Shown one piece after another: positions 7,659-62,214 of a stretch of 64,000 nt of DNA. Every line of letters begins with the position of its first letter. The stretch's first letter is position 1. A program made the translations under genes and the position numbers. The notes under the pieces are model-generated. The model did not search any database and was not told the origin of the DNA. It saw only the letters and a list, made by a program, of their open reading frames with translations. Source of the stretch: Actinorugispora endophytica (GTDB lineage Bacteria; Actinomycetota; Actinomycetes; Streptosporangiales; Streptosporangiaceae). Location of the stretch: NCBI RefSeq assembly GCF_004363075.1, contig NZ_SNYN01000008.1:62001-126000 (forward strand), written 5' to 3'.

Positions 7659-7702
7659 GGCCTTTCCGGGGTCTCGACCGCCGCTGAGACCCCGGAGAGG
7701 TC
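7659..7702. repeat. GATC-type intergenic palindrome, copy 1 (also a likely terminator)
   Basis: Arms 7659-7675 and 7686-7702 pair at 15 of 17 positions around CCTTTCCGGGGTCTC. It sits between two convergent genes and could terminate both. Read on the reverse strand it begins GATCGTGACCTCTCCGG and closely matches the palindrome at 62103-62148. Confidence 0.75.
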
Positions 7703-7739
7703 ACGATCAGCGAGGCCCGCGGCCGCCGGGCCCAGGGCG

Positions 7740-16432: not shown

Positions 16433-17767
16433 ATGACCGATTTCCCGACCGGTGCCGAGACAGGGCCTCCCTCCCCCCGACGCTCCTTCGACGACCTGCT
16501 CGGCGACTGCGTGCACTGCGGGTTCTGTCTGCCGACCTGCCCCACCTACGTGCTGTGGGGGGAGGAGATGGACTCCCCGCGCGGGCGGATCCACCTCATG
16601 GCCCAGACCAGGGACGACGTGCTCACCCCCGAGGTCGTCCAGCACTTCGACCGCTGCCTCGGCTGCCTGGCGTGCGTGAGCTCGTGCCCGTCGGGGGTGC
16701 GGTACGACTCGCTCATCGAGTCCACCCGGGCCCGGGTGGAGGCCGAGCACCAGCGGGGCCCGCGCGAGCGGCTGCTGCGGGCGCTGGTCTTCGCGCTGTT
16801 CCCGTACCGGCGCAGGCTGGACCTGCTGCGCGGGCCGCTGCGCGCCTACCGGGCCTGCGGCGCGTCCGCGTGGCTGCGCCGCAGTGGGGTGCTGGAGCGG
16901 GTCTCGCCGTCGCTGGCCGCCATGGAGCGGGTCGCGCCGCCGCTGCGGACCGTGCCCGCGCTGCCCGGGCGGCTGCCCGCCGTGGGGAGGCGGCGGGCCG
17001 TGGTGGGCCTGCTCACCGGGTGCGTGCAGGGCTCGCTCCTCCCCCAGGTGAACACCGCGACCGCGCGCGTGCTGGCGAGCGAGGGCTGCGAGGTGCTGAC
17101 CCCCCGCGCCCAGGGGTGCTGCGGGGCGCTGTCGGCGCACTCGGGCCGGGCCGCCGAGGCCGCCCGGTTCGCGCGCGCCACCGTCGAGACCTTCGAACGC
17201 GCGGGCGTGGACACGGTCGTGGTGAACTCGGCGGGCTGCGGAAGCAGCATGAAGCACTACGCCGACGTCCTGGCCGAAGCGGGGGCCGGGCCCTCCTGGG
17301 AGCGGCGGGCCCGCGCCCTGTCCGCACGGACCGCGGACCTCACCGAGTTCCTGGTGCGGCTGGGGCCGGTCGCCGAACGGCACCCGCTGCCCGTCCGCGC
17401 GGCCTACCACGACGCCTGCCACCTGTCGCACGGGCAGGGGGTGCGGGACCAGCCGCGCGAACTGCTGCGCGCGATCCCCGGCCTGGAGCTGCTCGACCTG
17501 CCCGACCCGGACCTCTGCTGCGGCTCCGCCGGGGTGTACAACCTGCTGCGCCCCGACGCGGCCCGCGAGCTGGGCGACCGCAAGGCCGGAAACCTGCGCT
17601 CGACCGGCGCGCGCCTGCTGGTCACGGGCAACCCCGGCTGCTCGCTGCAGATCGCCTCCGCGATGGAGCGCGGCGGACACCCCGTGTCCGTGGCGCACCC
17701 CGCCCAGGTCCTGGACGCCTCCATCCGGGGCCTGGACGCGTCGGCCCTGCTGGAGGACGCGCCCTAG
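16433..17767 (+). CDS. glcF: Glycolate oxidase iron-sulfur subunit GlcF
   Basis: A 444-residue iron-sulfur electron-transfer subunit of glycolate oxidase. Two 4Fe-4S binding sets are complete: CVHCGFCLPTCP (Cys 26, 29, 32, 36) and CLGCLACVSSCP (Cys 75, 78, 81, 85). Two CCG cysteine-rich domains follow, QGCCGALSAHSGR and LCCGSAGVYNLL, each typical of the GlpC/GlcF/HdrB family. The frame is open back to 15785, but that part is the shadow of the reverse-strand gene. The ATG at 16433 follows a GGAGG-containing leader. Stop at 17767, followed by a repeat-rich noncoding stretch. It should pass electrons from the GlcD/GlcE flavins to the quinone pool. Confidence 0.93.
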   Translation: MTDFPTGAETGPPSPRRSFDDLLGDCVHCGFCLPTCPTYVLWGEEMDSPRGRIHLMAQTRDDVLTPEVVQHFDRCLGCLACVSSCPSGVRYDSLIESTRARVEAEHQRGPRERLLRALVFALFPYRRRLDLLRGPLRAYRACGASAWLRRSGVLERVSPSLAAMERVAPPLRTVPALPGRLPAVGRRRAVVGLLTGCVQGSLLPQVNTATARVLASEGCEVLTPRAQGCCGALSAHSGRAAEAARFARATVETFERAGVDTVVVNSAGCGSSMKHYADVLAEAGAGPSWERRARALSARTADLTEFLVRLGPVAERHPLPVRAAYHDACHLSHGQGVRDQPRELLRAIPGLELLDLPDPDLCCGSAGVYNLLRPDAARELGDRKAGNLRSTGARLLVTGNPGCSLQIASAMERGGHPVSVAHPAQVLDASIRGLDASALLEDAP

Positions 17768-17782
17768 AGAGTCTCCGACGCG

Positions 17783-17907
17783 GGGGTGAATTCGGGCACC
17801 GGTGGTTTTGTTGACGGTCTTGGGCTTTCTGCCCGTTTCGGGGGCTGGAAGGGCGGAAAGCCCATGATCATTCCGGGGCAGAGCAGGACCGGCCCTCGAA
17901 CCTCCGC
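17783..17907 (+). repeat. Dispersed intergenic repeat, short copy (A)
   Basis: This stretch matches the reverse complement of 35474-35687. It holds GGGTGAATTCGGGCACCGGT, then TTGACGG, a hairpin (GGGCTTTCTGCCC 17822-17834 with GGGCGGAAAGCCC 17851-17863), CATGATCATTCCGGG and GACCGGCCCTCGAA. Compared with the other copy it lacks about 125 internal bases. Around 17951-17970 a further 19-base match (GCCGTCGCCGCCCGCCGTG) looks like the remnant of a second arm. The rest of the gap to 18152 contains no gene that I can support. Confidence 0.75.
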
Positions 17908-18152
17908 GTCACGGACACCCGGCGGGGACGCGCGGGCCTCCGGCCGCGCTCGCCGTCGCCGCCCGCCGTGCGCACCGCCGGGTCCGCTGAGGGTGATGCC
18001 GTGCTCGCTGACGCGGCGCGCGCGGCCGCCTCCCCACAGCGTCGAGCACGTCCACGCCCACGCCCCCGGGGCCGTATTGCCGGAACAGCAATTTTCCGTG
18101 CCAAAAGATAGAGGTTCCGTTGAGACTGGGCGCACCCGACAGAAGGAGCCCC

Positions 18153-33267: not shown

Positions 33268-35256
33268 ATGACCGAACGCGTGACCCTTCCCTACGGCAGC
33301 TGGCCCTCACCCGTCGCCGCCGCCGACATCGCCCGCGGGACGAGCCGCCTGGGCTTCCCCTCCGTCGTCGGAGACGAGATCTGGTGGGAGGAGTCCCGCC
33401 CCGATGAGGACGGCCGTAACACGGTGATGCACCGCGCGGCCGACGGAACGGTCACCGACCTGCTGCCGCCCCCGTGGAACGCCCGCACCCGGGTGCACGA
33501 GTACGGCGGGCGCGCCTTCCTACCGGTGCCGCGCCGCGACGACAAGGCGCTGACCCGGTGGGGGATCGTCTTCTCCGACCTCACCGACCAGCGTCTGCAC
33601 CTGCTGGAGAAGGGCGCGCGCGAGCCCCGCCCCCTCACCCCCGAACCCGCCTCCCCGGCGGCACTGCGGTACGCCGACCCCGTCCTGTCCCCCGACCAGA
33701 AGCACGTCGTCTGCGTGCGGGAGAGCCACGAGGGCGGCTCCCCGGTCCGCGCGATCGTGTCCGTCCCGCTGTCGGGCCGGGCCGCCGAAGACCCCTCCGC
33801 GGTGCGCGAGCTGGTCACCGGCTCGGACTTCTTCGCCTCCCCGGTCCCCTCGCCCGACGGCACGAAGCTGGCGTGGATCTCCTGGAACCACCCGCGCATG
33901 CCCTGGGTCGGCACCGAGCTGCGCGTGGGCGACCTCGACGGGTCCGGCCCGGTGACCGCCCCCTACACCCTCAGGGGCGGACCGAAGGAGTCGGTGCTGG
34001 CGCCGCTCTGGCGCGACTCCCGGACGCTGTACTTCGTGTCCGACTGGGCCGGCTGGTGGAACCTGTACGAGATCGGGACACGCGGCCCGGCGATGGCCCT
34101 GTTCCCCGAGGAGGCGGAGTTCACCCCTGCCCCCTGGCAGCTCGGCACCACCCCGTTCCGCGTGCTCGACGACGGCCGGATGGTCGTCCTGTACGGCAAC
34201 GCCGACCTCGGGCCCGGGGTCTACGACCCCGCCACCGCCGAACTGGTCCCGCTGAAATCCCCTCTGACCAGCTGGCAGACCCTGGCCTGCGACGGCACCA
34301 GCGTCGTGGGGATCGCGGCCTCCCCCACCGAGCCCGCCTCCCTCGTCCGGCTCGACCCCGACACCGGGGCCACGACCACGCTGCGCCGCTCCCCCGGCCG
34401 GCTCCCCGACACCGCCCTTCTGCCGGTCCCCGTCGAGGAGACCCTGCCGGGCCGGTACGGCGGGACCGTGCACGCCTTCGTCTACCCCCCGACCAGCCCC
34501 GACGCCGTGGGCGAGGGTCCCGCTCCCTACGTGGTGTGGGCGCACGGCGGGCCGACCACCGCGGCCGGCAGCGCGCTCGACCTGGAGAAGGCCTACTTCA
34601 CCAGCCGGGGCATCGGCGTCGTCGAGGTCAACTACGGCGGTTCCACCGGCTACGGGCGCTCCTACCGGGAGCGGCTGGACGGCCAATGGGGCGTGGTCGA
34701 CGTCGAGGACGCCGTCGCGGCGGCGCGGGCCCTGGTCGACCGGGGCGTCGCCGACCCCGCCCGCCTGGCCATCCGCGGTGGCAGCGCGGGCGGGACCACC
34801 ACCCTGCTCGCGCTGACCGGGGACACCTTCGCGTGCGGCGCCTCCTACTACGGCGTCACCGACCTGCTGCGCCTCGCCGAGGAGACGCACGACTTCGAGT
34901 CGCGCTACCTCGACACCCTCGTCGGGCCGCTGCCGGGCTACGCCTCGACCTACCGGGAGCGCTCCCCCGTCCACCGGGCCGCCGAGATCGACGTCCCCGT
35001 CCTGCTCCTGCAGGGCGCGGACGACCCTGTGGTGCCCCCCGCGCAGGCCAGGAAGCTCGTCGCGGTGCTGCGCGAGCGGGGGGTCCCGCACGCCCACGTG
35101 GAGTTCCCCGGCGAGAGCCACGGCTTCCGCGGGGCCGCCGCCGTCACCACCGCTCTGGAGACCGAACTCGCCTTCTACTGCAAGGTGTTCTTCGGCTTCA
35201 CCCCGCCCGGCGTTCCCCCCGTCGAACTGACCGGCGAACTGCGGCACTCGTACTAG
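33268..35256 (+). CDS. Prolyl-oligopeptidase-family serine peptidase (S9)
   Basis: A 662-residue two-domain S9 enzyme, probably cytosolic, of the acylaminoacyl-peptidase/dipeptidyl-peptidase-like group. Residues 20-400 form a beta-propeller-like part with TolB-type strands (LSPDQKHVVCVRESHEGG, PSPDGTKLAWISWNHPRMPW). The hydrolase part has the nucleophile elbow GGSAGGTT (Ser506), acid in GADDPVVPPA (Asp 585/586) and His618 in GESHGF. PWVGTELRVGDLDG is typical of the group. No signal peptide. The ATG at 33268 is chosen from the family-like start. Substrate is unknown; peptides with small N-terminal groups are typical. Confidence 0.9.
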   Translation: MTERVTLPYGSWPSPVAAADIARGTSRLGFPSVVGDEIWWEESRPDEDGRNTVMHRAADGTVTDLLPPPWNARTRVHEYGGRAFLPVPRRDDKALTRWGIVFSDLTDQRLHLLEKGAREPRPLTPEPASPAALRYADPVLSPDQKHVVCVRESHEGGSPVRAIVSVPLSGRAAEDPSAVRELVTGSDFFASPVPSPDGTKLAWISWNHPRMPWVGTELRVGDLDGSGPVTAPYTLRGGPKESVLAPLWRDSRTLYFVSDWAGWWNLYEIGTRGPAMALFPEEAEFTPAPWQLGTTPFRVLDDGRMVVLYGNADLGPGVYDPATAELVPLKSPLTSWQTLACDGTSVVGIAASPTEPASLVRLDPDTGATTTLRRSPGRLPDTALLPVPVEETLPGRYGGTVHAFVYPPTSPDAVGEGPAPYVVWAHGGPTTAAGSALDLEKAYFTSRGIGVVEVNYGGSTGYGRSYRERLDGQWGVVDVEDAVAAARALVDRGVADPARLAIRGGSAGGTTTLLALTGDTFACGASYYGVTDLLRLAEETHDFESRYLDTLVGPLPGYASTYRERSPVHRAAEIDVPVLLLQGADDPVVPPAQARKLVAVLRERGVPHAHVEFPGESHGFRGAAAVTTALETELAFYCKVFFGFTPPGVPPVELTGELRHSY

Positions 35257-35269
35257 GGGACCCCCGGCG

Positions 35270-35687
35270 CGAGGGTGGTTCGCGTGCCGGTGCTTGGGGG
35301 GCCTTTTCGACCTCACGCCACGCGGACCACGAGGCCACGGCGGGTGCGGGTGCGGGTCGAGACCGTGCCCACGGCGTCCGTTTCGCGTGGTTTCCGTTGA
35401 TGATCTTGCTGTTTCCCCCTGAAACCAAGGATTCCGTGGGGAAAACAGCAAGATCACCGGACATTCGAGGGCCGGTCCCACCCCACCCGGAATGATCATG
35501 GGCTTTCCGCCCTTCCCGGCCCCGAAACGGGCAGAAAGCCCAAGGCCGTCAACGGAACCCTCACGCAACGGACATCATGGGCACGGCCCCGGCCCCACCC
35601 GCCGTCGCCGCCCGCCGTGACCTCGCGATCCGCGTGGCGTGAGGTCGAAAAGGCCCCCGAAGCACCGGTGCCCGAATTCACCCTCGC
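35270..35687. repeat. Composite inverted-repeat element with two palindromes (copy B)
   Basis: Left arm 35270-35400 and right arm 35549-35687 are imperfect reverse complements (both contain GGCCTTTTCGACCTCACGCC and CCGTGCCCA). Just inside them lie two different hairpins: TGATCTTGCTGTTTCCCC at 35401-35418 with 35438-35456, and GGGCTTTCCGCCC at 35500-35512 with GGGCAGAAAGCCC at 35529-35541. A shared middle (CATTCGAGGGCCGGTCC) lies between. The right half matches the repeat at 17783-17907. It fills the S9-rny convergent spacer. No gene is seen in it. Confidence 0.85.
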
Positions 35688-35704
35688 GCCGGAGGAGGGT
35701 CCCG

Positions 35705-37246
35705 TCAGCGCGCGGTCTCGGTGGCCCTGGACTCGCGGATCACCGTGACCCGGATCTGCCCCGGGTAGGTGAGCTCCTCCTCGACTCGCTTGGCGATGTC
35801 GCGCGCGATCACCTGCGCCTGCACGTCGTCCACCGCCTCGGGTCTGACCATCACCCGGATCTCCCGCCCCGCCTGCATCGCGAAGACCTTCTCCACGCCC
35901 TCGTTGGCGCGGGCGATCTCCTCCATCCGCTGCAACCGCTCCACATAGGACTCCAGCGACTCCCGGCGCGCCCCCGGGCGGCTCCCGCTGATCGCGTCGG
36001 CGGCCTGGGTCAGCACCGCCTCGACCGTGCGCACCTCCACCTCGTTGTGGTGCGCCTCGATGGCGTGCACGACGTCCTCGTTCTCGCCGTAGCGGCGGGC
36101 GATCTCCGCGCCGATCATCGCGTGGCTGCCCTCGACCTCGTGCGTCAGCGCCTTGCCGATGTCGTGCAGCAGCGCGCAGCGCTTCATCAACCGCGCGTCC
36201 ATCCCCAGCTCCGCGGCCATCATCCCGGCCAGGTGCGCGCACTCCACCAGGTGCGCCAGCACGTTCTGGCCGTAGGAGGTGCGGTAGCGCAGCTGACCGA
36301 GCAGAGTGACCAGCTCGGGGTGCATGTCGGTGAGGCCGACCTCGACGAGGGCGTCCTCACCCGCGCGCACGCAGAGCTGGTCCACCTCCACACGGCTGGT
36401 CTCGTAGACCTCCTCGATCCGGTGCGGATGAATCCGCCCGTCCAGGACGAGCTTCTCCAGGGTGAGGCGGGCGACCTCTCTGCGGACCGGGTCGAAGCAC
36501 GACAGCAGCACCGCCTCGGGGGTGTCGTCGATGATCAGGTTGACCCCCGTGACCATCTCGAAGGCGCGGATGTTGCGGCCCTCACGACCGATGATCCGGC
36601 CTTTCATGTCGTCGCCGGGCAGATGGACGACCGAGACGACCGACTCGCTCGTCTGCTCGCTCGCCAACCGCTGGATGGCCAGCGTGATGATCTTCCGGGC
36701 CCGCGCCTCGCCGTTCTTCCGCGCGTCCTTCTCGATGTCCCGCGCGATCAGCGCGGCCTCGCGCTTGGCCTGGTTCTCCACCTCCGCCACCAGCGCCGCT
36801 CTGGCGTCCTCCGCGCTCAGCGCCGCGGCGGCCTCGAGGACGGCGAGCCGCTCCCGGTCGAGTCCGGCGAGTTCGGCCTCGCGCACGTCCAGGCCCGCGG
36901 CGCGCTCCTCGTCCCGGCGGCGGGCCTCGGCAAGTCGGCGGGCGTCCTCGTCGAGGCGCTGCTCCCGCTCGCCCACACGCCGCTCCCGGCGTTCCAGATC
37001 CGCGCGACGCCCGTCCAGCCGCGCCTCGACCTCGGCCTGCTCGGCCACGGCGGCCGCGGTCCTGCGCTCGGCGGCCTGCTCGGCCTCGACCCGGATGCGG
37101 TCGGCCTGCTGCCGGGCCTCCTCCACGAGCACGGTCGCGCGGGCCCTCACCGCGCGCGCCGACCTGGCCAGCAGGAACCCGCCGGTGAGGAGCACGGCCA
37201 GCGCCACGAGGAACACCGCGACCAGCAGGCCGGTCACGCCGTCCAT
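35705..37246 (-). CDS. rny: Ribonuclease Y
   Basis: A 513-residue membrane-anchored endoribonuclease. An N-terminal transmembrane helix lies at about 5-27 (TGLLVAVFLVALAVLLTGGF). A long charged coiled coil follows to about 180. A KH domain follows (VVHLPGDDMKGRIIGREGRN), then the HD domain with catalytic His361-Asp362 in ALLHDIGKALTHEVEGSH and IEAHHNEVE. RNase Y starts mRNA decay in Firmicutes. This organism also encodes RNase J at 55993-57678. The gap to recX (37247-37451) contains the rny promoter region; I do not see a clear -35/-10 there. Confidence 0.95.
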   Translation of the reverse strand: MDGVTGLLVAVFLVALAVLLTGGFLLARSARAVRARATVLVEEARQQADRIRVEAEQAAERRTAAAVAEQAEVEARLDGRRADLERRERRVGEREQRLDEDARRLAEARRRDEERAAGLDVREAELAGLDRERLAVLEAAAALSAEDARAALVAEVENQAKREAALIARDIEKDARKNGEARARKIITLAIQRLASEQTSESVVSVVHLPGDDMKGRIIGREGRNIRAFEMVTGVNLIIDDTPEAVLLSCFDPVRREVARLTLEKLVLDGRIHPHRIEEVYETSRVEVDQLCVRAGEDALVEVGLTDMHPELVTLLGQLRYRTSYGQNVLAHLVECAHLAGMMAAELGMDARLMKRCALLHDIGKALTHEVEGSHAMIGAEIARRYGENEDVVHAIEAHHNEVEVRTVEAVLTQAADAISGSRPGARRESLESYVERLQRMEEIARANEGVEKVFAMQAGREIRVMVRPEAVDDVQAQVIARDIAKRVEEELTYPGQIRVTVIRESRATETAR

Positions 37247-37451: not shown

Positions 37452-38021
37452 TCACCCGGGGCCGGGCTCGTCGAGGCCGGCGTCGAGCCCCTCGGCCTCC
37501 AGCTCCGCGCGGATCAGCCGGTAGGCGAGCCCCGCCGGGTAGCCCTTGCGGGCGAGCATGCCCATGAGCCTGCGGGTGCGCACCTCCGCGCTCCTGCCCC
37601 GGGTCCCGGCGAGCTTCCGGCGGATCAGGGAGCGCGCGGTGGCCTCCTCCTGTTCGGGGCTGAGCTCGTCCACCGCTCCGCGCACCGTCTCCTCGTCGAC
37701 CCCGCGCCGGCGCAGCTCGGAGGCCAGGGCGCGCCGGGCCAGTCCCCGGCCGGCGTGCCGGGACTCCACCCACGCCCCGGCGAAGGCGGCGTCGTCGATG
37801 ATGCCGACCTCGCTGTACCGGCTGAGGACCGCCTCGGCCGCTTCGTCGGGGATATCGCGTTTGCGCAGCGCGTCGGCGAGCTGGGCCCGGGTGCGCGGGG
37901 CGAAGGTGAGCAGTCGCAGGCAGATCTCGCGGGCCTTGGCCTCGGGGTCCGCCTCCGGCCGCGTACCGGCGACCGGAGGCTCCTCGTACTCCGTGTGGTG
38001 GTCGGTCTCCCGATCAGGCAT
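37452..38021 (-). CDS. recX: RecA regulator RecX
   Basis: A 189-residue all-helical RecX protein that binds RecA filaments and limits their activity. Three-helix repeats are visible: [20 protein letters not shown], then [20 protein letters not shown], and the later [20 protein letters not shown]. The open frame extends to 38201, but that part overlaps recA in another frame and is low complexity. The ATG at 38021 gives [16 protein letters not shown] and overlaps the recA TGA by eight bases (ATGCCTGA), so recA and recX are translationally coupled. Confidence 0.95.
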
Positions 38022-40287
38022 CGGTGGCGGTGACCGGCTTGGACTCCACCACCGGCTTGGGCTCCGCCACCGGCTTGGGCTCCGCCACGGCCTTGGGCTC
38101 CGCCGCGGCCTTGCCGCGCGGCGTCCGCTTCGCGGTGGCCGGAGCCGCGGCCGGCTCCTTGGCGGCCTTGGCGGGCTCGCTGGTCGCGCTGTCGTCCCCA
38201 CCGGTGGGGATGCCCAGCTTGTCCTTGATCCGCTTCTCGATCTCGTTGGCCATGTCGACGTTCTCGCGCAGGAAGTTCCGCGCGTTCTCCTTGCCCTGGC
38301 CGAGCTGGGTGCCCTCGTAGGTGTACCAGGCCCCGGACTTGCGCACGATCCCGTTCTCGACGCCGAGGTCGATCAGACCGCCCTCGCGGGAGACCCCGAC
38401 ACCGTAGAGGATGTCGAACTCCGCCTGCTTGAACGGCGGCGCGGTCTTGTTCTTGACGACCTTGACCCGGGTCCGGTTGCCGACCGCGTCGGTACCGTCC
38501 TTCAGCGTCTCGATCCGGCGCACGTCCAGTCGCACCGACGCGTAGAACTTCAGCGCCCGCCCGCCCGAGGTGGTCTCGGGGCTGTTGTGCACCATTACCC
38601 CGTCGACGAAGTAATTGTGGTTTCCTTCGACCTCGATGTCGAACTTGCGCATGCTGCGGGTCTGCGGCTTGACACGCACGTCGAGGATCGGAGCGGGGAC
38701 CAGCCTCTCGACGGGCTCGGCGAACTGAGGCTCGACCTCGCAGCGGCCGCGGAACCGTGGCAGCAGCTTGTAGTCCATGGACTCGTGCACGTAGGGAGCG
38801 ACGATCTCCATGAACTTGGCCGAGGCCTCCGTGTTGAACACGATGAAGCTCTTCTTCTCGGTACCGCGCTCGGCCAGCTTGACGCTGAGCCCGTGGGTGT
38901 CGCGCAGGTAATCGGCCAACCGAACCCTGGAACCCGGACTCATCGCCTCGACGCAGATTTCGATCCGGCCGCTGCCGCCCTCCGTGCGGGCCTGGACACC
39001 CTTGGAACCCGGGGTGAAGCACCCGTCGTCCATGTACCACACGGCCAGCGCGAGTGGGGTCAGTTCCTTCAGGAACTCCCAGGTGAAGTGCTTCTTGCCA
39101 TCACCGAAGTACACGACCTTACGCAGCTCTTCGAGCTCGGGCAGCGGGGTGAAGTCGGCGAACACCGCCTGCTTGGCGTTGGCGGTCCGAGAATGTCCGA
39201 TGTTGGACAGCAGCGAGACCTTCCAGTCGAGGTACTCCTCCTGCGTGACTCCGTGCCCCATTCGGAATCGCACGCCGGTGCGGCCTCGGCGGTCGGGCGA
39301 GAGGTTGCCGTCTCCCATAACGGAGCCATAGACGACCTGGCGCTGTTGGTCGCTCAGGTAGTGCGTCTCGTTGGCCAGGACCCGATCCCCGGTGATGAGC
39401 TCGCCCGCCTCACGCCATCCGCCCGGCGTGCGGACCAGGTGGTTGGGCGTGGCGGCGAACTGCGCCTTGCCGTTCTTCCCCGACTTACCCACGGTGAACT
39501 GCAGGAAGTACTCGGCGTTGCCGTTGTCGAACCAGTTCACGACCCTGCGGGGGACGACCTGGTCCGTCTCGGGGTCGTAGGAGAGGACCTCGACGTCCAT
39601 CTTCTGGTCGACGATCTTGCCGATCTTCTCCTGGGATCCGTCGGCGAGCGTTACCCGGGTGCTGTAGTTCATGCACCCGAACATCACCCCGACCTTCTCG
39701 CGGAGCTGGTTGATGAAGATGGCAGTGGTGTTCGTCTGGTGCAGGGCGCCCGCGATCTTGCGCAGGGCCTGGGACATCAGGCGGGCCTGCAGACCCACGT
39801 GGCTGTCGCCCATCTCGCCCTCGATCTCGGCGCGCGGCACGAGCGCGGCGACGGAGTCGATGACGATGATGGAGACCGCGCCGGAGCGGATCAGCATGTC
39901 GACGATCTCCAGCGCCTGCTCGCCCGTGTCGGGCTGGGACAGCAGGAGGTCGTCGGTGTTCACGCCGATCTTCTTGGCGTAGGAGGGGTCGAGCGCGTGC
40001 TCGGCGTCCACGAACGCCGCGATGCCGCCCAGCCGCTGCGCGCTGGCCACGGCGTGCAGCGCGACGGTCGTCTTGCCGGAGGACTCCGGACCGTAGATCT
40101 CGACGATCCGTCCCCGGGGGATGCCGCCGATGCCCAGGGCCACGTCCAGGGAGATGGCCCCGGTGGGGATGGACTCGATGGGCGGACGCTCGTCATCGCC
40201 CAAGCGCATGATGGAGCCCTTGCCGAACTGGCGCTCGATCTGCGCGAGTGCGGTTTCAAGAGCTTTGTCTCGATCAGCAGCTGCCAC
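38014..40287 (-). CDS. recA: Recombinase RecA precursor with internal intein
   Basis: A 757-residue precursor; removal of the 364-residue intein leaves a 393-residue RecA. N-extein: [20 protein letters not shown], Walker A GPESSGKT at about 66-73, and [13 protein letters not shown], where the intein begins after Gly204. C-extein resumes [20 protein letters not shown]. The C-terminal tail is long and contains degenerate AEPKPV repeats. The GTG at 40287, six bases after AGGGG, gives [10 protein letters not shown] as in relatives; an ATG at 40323 and one at 40356 are alternatives. RecA drives strand exchange and LexA cleavage. The recX start overlaps its stop. A LexA box lies about 190 bases upstream. 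Confidence 0.96.
38584..39675 (-). other. RecA intein with LAGLIDADG homing endonuclease
   Basis: An in-frame 364-residue insertion between Gly and Ser of the RecA MFG/SPETT sequence. Intein numbering: block A Cys1 in [14 protein letters not shown]; block [11 protein letters not shown] with Thr76 and His79; endonuclease motifs [10 protein letters not shown] at about 114-123 and [11 protein letters not shown] at about 208-218, each with its acidic residue; block [19 protein letters not shown]; block G VMVHN with penultimate His363 and terminal Asn364; then Ser as the +1 residue. All splicing residues are present, so autosplicing is expected. From memory, the M. leprae RecA intein sits at the same site and has a closely similar sequence, whereas the M. 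tuberculosis one is elsewhere in RecA. Family knowledge, not searched. Confidence 0.97.
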
Positions 40288-40469
40288 GGGAAACCCCTGT
40301 TGGGTCGATGCCTTCTTCTTCATGATGAGGATGACGCTACGCGGCGCCGGTGACATTTCGCGACGCGTTCGCCCCTCCTGTGGACAACCGCCGAGCGGTC
40401 CTCCTACCTGGGCGGCTTCGGCCGCCCGCCGGGTGGCACGGCGGCCACTCCAGGCCCGGGTACACCACC

Positions 40470-61468: not shown

Positions 61469-62099
61469 GCCGCGGGGCCGCGCCCGCACGCTGCTGGGCG
61501 CCGTGCTGCTGCTCGGCACCGCCTCGCTGGTCCCCGCGGGCTCGGCGGCGGCCGACGAGACCGCGCAGCCCCTTTCCGAGGACTTCTCCGACCAGCAGGT
61601 CGCCTCGGCGCCCATCCTCGACCTCGAACTGCCCGTGCGCGACCTGGCCGCGCCGGTGCGGGACCTGACGTTCGCCACCGCCAACGAGGACGGCTCGGTC
61701 ACCGACTCGGTGGACACCGAGGAGCGCACCGTCACGCTGGCCGCCGACGTGCTGTTCGAGTTCGACGAGGCCGCCCTCGGCCCCGAGGCCGAGGACGTGC
61801 TGGCGGAGGCCGCCGGAATCCTGCGCTCCGACGCGGTCGGCGCGACCGTGCGGATCGACGGCCACACCGACGCCAGGGGCTCGGAGGAGTACAACCAGAC
61901 CCTGTCGGAGGAGCGCGCCCGGACGGTCGAGACGGAACTGGACGCCCTGCTGGCCGACGTGGACGTCTCCTTCGAGACCGAGGGCCACGGCTCCGCCGAC
62001 CCGGTCGAACCCAACGAGCTCGACGGGGAGGACAACCCCGACGGCCGCGCGGCGAACCGCCGGGTGGAGATCAGCTTCCCGCCCCCGGAACCGCGCTGA
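61452..62099 (+). CDS. OmpA-domain envelope protein
   Basis: A 215-residue secreted protein with a signal peptide (about 1-35, SLVPAGSAAADE) and an OmpA-like C-terminal domain at about 98-210. That domain has LFEFDEAALGPEAEDVLAEA, IDGHTDARGSEEYNQTLSEE, and AANRRVEISFP. OmpA-like domains bind peptidoglycan through meso-diaminopimelate. Gram-positive versions are found in actinomycetes near lipoproteins like the one that overlaps this start by 17 bases. Probably the pair acts together in the cell wall; this is inference. Confidence 0.9.
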   Translation: MSRSAEPRGRARTLLGAVLLLGTASLVPAGSAAADETAQPLSEDFSDQQVASAPILDLELPVRDLAAPVRDLTFATANEDGSVTDSVDTEERTVTLAADVLFEFDEAALGPEAEDVLAEAAGILRSDAVGATVRIDGHTDARGSEEYNQTLSEERARTVETELDALLADVDVSFETEGHGSADPVEPNELDGEDNPDGRAANRRVEISFPPPEPR

Positions 62100-62102
62100 T
62101 CC

Positions 62103-62148
62103 TGACCTTTCCGGGGTCTCGGAGACGGTCGAGACCCCGAAAAGGTCA
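62103..62148. repeat. GATC-type intergenic palindrome, copy 2 (also a likely terminator)
   Basis: TGACCTTTCCGGGGTCTCG at 62103-62121 and 62130-62148 pair at 18 of 19 positions with an 8-base loop, four bases after the OmpA-domain stop. Read on the reverse strand it starts GATCTTGACCTTTTCGGGG. It closely matches the palindrome at 7659-7702. Confidence 0.85.
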
Positions 62149-62214
62149 AGATCGGCGGGAAACACCACGAACCGGACGCCTTCCCGCGGTCCCCTCCCCG
62201 ATCGAAGCGCGCCT

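Follow-up and report, generated by a model that had tools for sequence, protein, structure and literature searches.

Stop-codon landing and apparently interchangeable hairpins in a putative IS630-type MITE family of Actinorugispora endophytica

In Actinorugispora endophytica, the convergent genes for an S9 prolyl oligopeptidase and for RNase Y (rny) are separated by a long, near-palindromic sequence, which raises the question of what this sequence is and how it came to lie there. All positions given for the locus refer to the window, the whole 64,000-nucleotide stretch of DNA analysed here; genes were called with a simple codon-usage script. The initial annotation had described a composite element at 35270-35687, made of two imperfect inverted arms that each carry their own inner palindrome. 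Arms and palindromes are present where they had been placed, and this core stands, while the true limits are slightly wider (35254-35704, about 451 bp); the element takes up the entire gap between the two genes, as had also been claimed (Table 1). The outermost segments of the arms (35261-35277 and 35679-35695) are 94% complementary, followed inward by a 66-nt pair (35279-35344/35611-35676; 89%) and a less well conserved one (35354-35415/35534-35595; 74%), and the two inner palindromes have stems of 19 nt (HA; 95%) and 21 nt (HB; 81%). The element contains no transposase gene, and only its left end retains a TA. Elsewhere in the window (38014-40356), the predicted RecA is 780 residues long and contains an insertion that, judging from the open reading frame list only, looks like an intein.

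Table 1. Features of the element in the S9 peptidase/rny gap, its flanking genes, and the second copy in the window
Feature	Position	Strand	Remarks
Whole element: putative MITE (two long arms, two hairpin cassettes)	35254..35704	+	From the S9 stop codon to the base adjoining the rny stop
Left terminal inverted repeat TAGGGGACCCCCGGCGCGAGGGTG	35254..35277	+	2 mismatches vs family consensus
Left long arm, modules A1-A2	35278..35400	+	
Hairpin cassette HA (TGATCTTGCTGTTT... / ...AACAGCAAGATCA)	35401..35456	+	
Shared centre separating HA and HB	35457..35498	+	
Hairpin cassette HB (TGGGCTTTCCGCCC... / ...GGGCAGAAAGCCCA)	35499..35542	+	
Right long arm, modules A2-A1, inverted copy	35543..35680	-	
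Right terminal inverted repeat, decayed	35681..35704	-	Terminal TA lost, small insertion
S9 prolyl oligopeptidase gene	33268..35256	+	TAG stop = first 3 bases of the element
rny (RNase Y) gene, convergent	35705..37246	-	Stop codon adjoins the element
Second copy, right-truncated	17765..17990	-	Left terminal repeat at 17765, short arm, HB; right limit approximate

The sequence is one member of a dispersed family. A search of the host's own genome with the window segment returned at least 40 scored places, and similarity alone, once left-half and right-half queries were added, returned at least 73 distinct places. Comparison of flanks revealed sharp ends common to the copies, TAGGGARNCTCCGGCGCGGGGGTG together with a TATGGGG variant, and a pattern search for the terminal repeat, allowing up to 3 mismatches, found 264 sites (133 + 131) in the 5.25-Mb genome, against 0 for the reversed pattern used as a control. 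The family therefore has at least 130 copies in this genome. Identity among copies averages about 83% (best, 97%), and most of them are thus probably old.

Fifty-two elements, delimited from terminal repeat to terminal repeat, range from 71 to 566 bp (mean, 350 bp) and fall into length classes near 260, 350, and 455 bp. A typical complete copy begins with a long arm (A1-A2), continues with one or two hairpins, and ends in a second arm that is long, short, or one of three other kinds; the core consists of HA plus HB in 24 copies, of HB alone in 23, and of a third hairpin, HC, in 3. The copies are thus mosaics in which swappable arms surround three interchangeable hairpins, which bears out the swapped or deleted modules that had initially been suspected. 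That suspicion had arisen from a recurrence of the right half of the element with an inner part of the arm missing. This recurrence is the second copy in the window, in which HB lies at about 17820-17864 and the left terminal repeat supplies the TAG stop for the gene upstream (16433-17767); its short arm, found in 32 of the 52 complete elements, is a common variant and not a private deletion. Adjacent copies have a single TA in common. Two minimal copies, of 94 bp (L145, 1501-1594) and 71 bp (L161, 19496-19566), have two nearly intact terminal repeats and scant interior.

The HA half-site occurs 79 times in the host genome and 0 to 2 times elsewhere. HC, a 79-bp palindrome (TGATCKTGACCTTTYCGGGGTCTC plus its inverse), is present in about 190 genomic copies, its half-sites numbering 189 + 194 genome-wide (control, 0). 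HC sites lie in the window at 62087-62165 and 7691-7711, and many are found within the first 400 kb of contig C1 (C1:1-400000). Both sides of the HC stem are often altered jointly, and HC was sought in the loci of relatives and not found there. Shuffle tests of sequence kinship between HA or HB and the HC palindrome gave p values of 0.005 to 0.1, and a relationship of HA and HB to HC is only suggestive. Taken together, these observations suggest that the transposon shells exchange terminator-like cassettes.

Across 341 genomes of the same taxonomic family, the terminal-repeat pattern reached 264 sites here and 0 to 3, the control level, in any other; the roughly 340 other genomes of this taxonomic family lack the elements, in a sample in which the host, a draft assembly, is the sole representative of its genus. 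Plasmid and phage records that were searched for the element gave no match. Weak DNA matches at the family level were rejected as short and GC-rich, those in one genome (G072) belonging to another palindromic repeat array. Three loci of another genus (L091, L111, and L117) hold dense arrays of imperfect palindromic repeats that have a short GCCGTCGCCGCCCG motif in common with an arm module.

Relatives retrieved through the S9 protein were Nocardiopsaceae and Actinomadura-like species; Thermobifida fusca is the closest (76% protein identity). Their loci (1.03 Mb) contained one weak terminal-repeat match. Many of these relatives show the convergent arrangement of the S9 and rny genes, and in many the gap measures 4 to 100 bp and lacks the element; T. 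fusca has a gap of 42 bp and T. cellulosilytica one of 39 bp, compared with 448 bp here. At eight further loci where an element end coincides with a gene stop, the orthologues in relatives (up to four per locus, one for some) likewise lack the element, bringing the orthologous sites that are empty in relatives to nine. At these eight loci, the C-termini of the orthologous proteins coincide or differ by about 0 to 3 residues; the insertions therefore hit or adjoined existing stops and left the genes untruncated.

How often elements abut stop codons was assessed at 144 distinct ends, a set biased to the retrieved loci, 56 of which form the in-frame stop of a neighbouring gene pointing at the element (55 TAG and 1 TAA); three further ends fall in frame 2 and none in frame 1. 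An unbiased 400-kb sample taken from contig C1 agrees with this, a gene stop lying exactly at one end in seven of its nine paired elements (six left and one right). Unbiased background statistics were drawn from 464 kb of this genome (73% GC), in which 120 of 4077 TA dinucleotides serve as stop codons. A general preference for TA combined with selection against coding insertions was rejected as an explanation: stop TAs make up 106 of about 1232 free TAs (stop plus intergenic), too few to yield 39% of ends, so that a preference for CTAG is needed. In the same 464 kb, CTAG was observed 121 times where base composition would lead one to expect 1127, a depletion of about nine-fold; stops account for 45% of its occurrences and coding DNA for 5%. 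Of 110 ends, 81 have C as the base outside the TA. The TA itself is kept by 67 of 104 ends, and only 22 of the 52 complete elements have it on both sides, which counts against a MITE model; when the flanks of these 22 are joined, 11 read CTAG, against a background of 3.0% of TAs. IS630 is reported to favour TA within CTAG (Tenzen and Ohtsubo 1991, cited in PMC2170065). Overall, a CTAG preference is enough to account for landing on stop codons, because CTAG is rare and almost absent from coding DNA.

A search of the host genome for DDE_3 domains identified one convincing IS630-type gene (L148), at a contig end. Its first part encodes helix-turn-helix (HTH) domains and its second part DDE_3 (PF13358; E value, 5e-22), and the two parts lie in frames that overlap at an AAAAAAA (A7) run, suggesting a frameshift. 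The activity of this IS copy is uncertain because of the two overlapping frames and because its last ~17 bases are lost at the contig end. Its left end reads TAGAGAGGTTCCGGTTTGGGGGTG, and the IS630 right end, TAGAGAGTTTCCGGGGTGGGGGTT, is seen in a fragment elsewhere, where a single TA joins it to a full MITE copy. The IS ends agree with the MITE consensus at 20 of 24 positions on the left and 20 of 24 on the right, a likeness that falls short of identity, the consensus being degenerate. IS630 relatives found in other genera, at identities of up to 70%, carry TAGAGA... ends with TA; most of these ends are without the CCGG...GGGGGTG part, and the match to the MITE is therefore specific to this genome. 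In a nested insertion cluster (L149, about 1374-1640), an IS630 fragment shares a TA with a MITE copy and has a further MITE end behind it.

We consider it highly probable that the sequence is a non-autonomous MITE and that a transposase of the IS630/Tc1-mariner family mobilises it in trans, the involvement of an IS630 transposase being inferred from sequence. The MITE-like character first suspected is thus well supported by the copy number, the empty sites, the TA-flanked ends that most often give CTAG when joined, and the IS630 partner with matching repeats. An IS630-type transposase would paste the element into CTAG, duplicating the TA. Because CTAG seldom occurs in coding DNA and close to half of its sites are TAG stops, copies would repeatedly land on stop codons, and since G follows the TA in the terminal repeat, insertion would rebuild TAG and leave the gene product unchanged. 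Recombination between arms and swapping of the HA, HB, and HC cassettes may then have made the copies diverse. Less certainly, the cassettes may act as putative two-way transcript-end hairpins, a hypothesis under which insertion behind a gene would be harmless; weak covariation and the failure to find a T-run terminator in the element tell against such a function. Only tentatively do we suggest the fuller scheme, in which a transposon shell with interchangeable two-way terminator hairpins, inserting at stops by CTAG preference, would replace the 3' end signals of many genes while leaving their proteins unaltered, and in which the solo HC palindromes would represent donors or remnants.

Landing on TAG stops that are restored by the element's own first bases would allow spread at gene ends with little damage. 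A CTAG-preferring transposase would meet almost only stop codons and intergenic DNA, which would offer a simple quantitative answer to the question of how a mobile element reaches more than 100 copies in a compact, high-GC genome, and would provide a case in which landing sites are largely dictated by how rare the target is within genes. The family also lends itself to a natural test of whether transcript ends become taken over by mobile hairpins.

An alternative is that the copies are domesticated two-way terminators or mRNA-end repeats of the REP/BIME kind, which selection maintains at the 3' ends of genes and which gene conversion, not a DDE transposase, has spread. Strong hairpins directly behind stop codons would fit this explanation, as would the placement of HC, which lies between convergent genes in 17 of 24 sampled cases when convergent gaps make up 61 of 330 overall. 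However, the defined TA ends, the CTAG targets, the matching IS630 partner, the precision of stop-codon insertion, and the empty sites in relatives all argue for transposition, and no terminator consisting of a GC-rich stem and a T-run was found in 35150-35800 by a scan that is blind to terminators without a T-run. We therefore regard this alternative as improbable. Less likely still is a structured noncoding RNA gene repeated across the genome, an RNA-producing element having been the other initial suggestion. Both strands are predicted to fold far more stably than shuffled sequences (-320.7 kcal/mol and z = -18.2 for the plus strand; -354.1 kcal/mol and z = -20.5 for the minus strand), but the window gave no Rfam match at or above any family's gathering threshold, neither a sigma-70 promoter nor a T-tailed terminator was found, the covariation term is unfavourable (+6.1) with two-sided change in 15 of 166 pairs, and a size range of 71 to 566 bp with swapped modules speaks against a conserved RNA. 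Ordinary old intergenic sequence with chance palindromes, in whose favour stands the partial decay of the right end and nothing else, is scarcely credible and is refuted by the copy number, with its zero controls, and by the empty sites.

Returning to transposition, we propose that these elements represent a new, RUP-like family of IS630-type MITEs, apparently unusual in its stop-codon landing and its interchangeable hairpins. RUP is non-autonomous and intergenic, with about 100 copies, ends like those of a resident IS630 element (IS630-Spn1), and TA targets (PMC2229807); the window family resembles it, by analogy only, in being non-autonomous with IS630-like terminal repeats and TA targets. 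Whereas RUP is 107 bp long and uniform in design, the window family consists of 71- to 566-bp mosaics with hairpin cassettes and with ends falling on stop codons. IS630 and ISY100 (IS630-Tc1-mariner), as described in PMC2170065, likewise duplicate TA, and IS630 is also reported there to prefer CTAG, but both are autonomous. MITEPsy1 of Pseudomonas syringae is a MITE that inserts at CTAG or YTAA (PMC3189936) and so resembles the window element in its CTAG insertion; it differs in its 4-bp duplication, its probable link to ISPsy2, its length of 100 bp, and its six copies. REP/BIME sequences are also mosaic intergenic palindromes of high copy number. REPs are 20 to 40 bp long and tied to Y1 transposases (PMC3733652), whereas the window family has long terminal repeats and a DDE partner.
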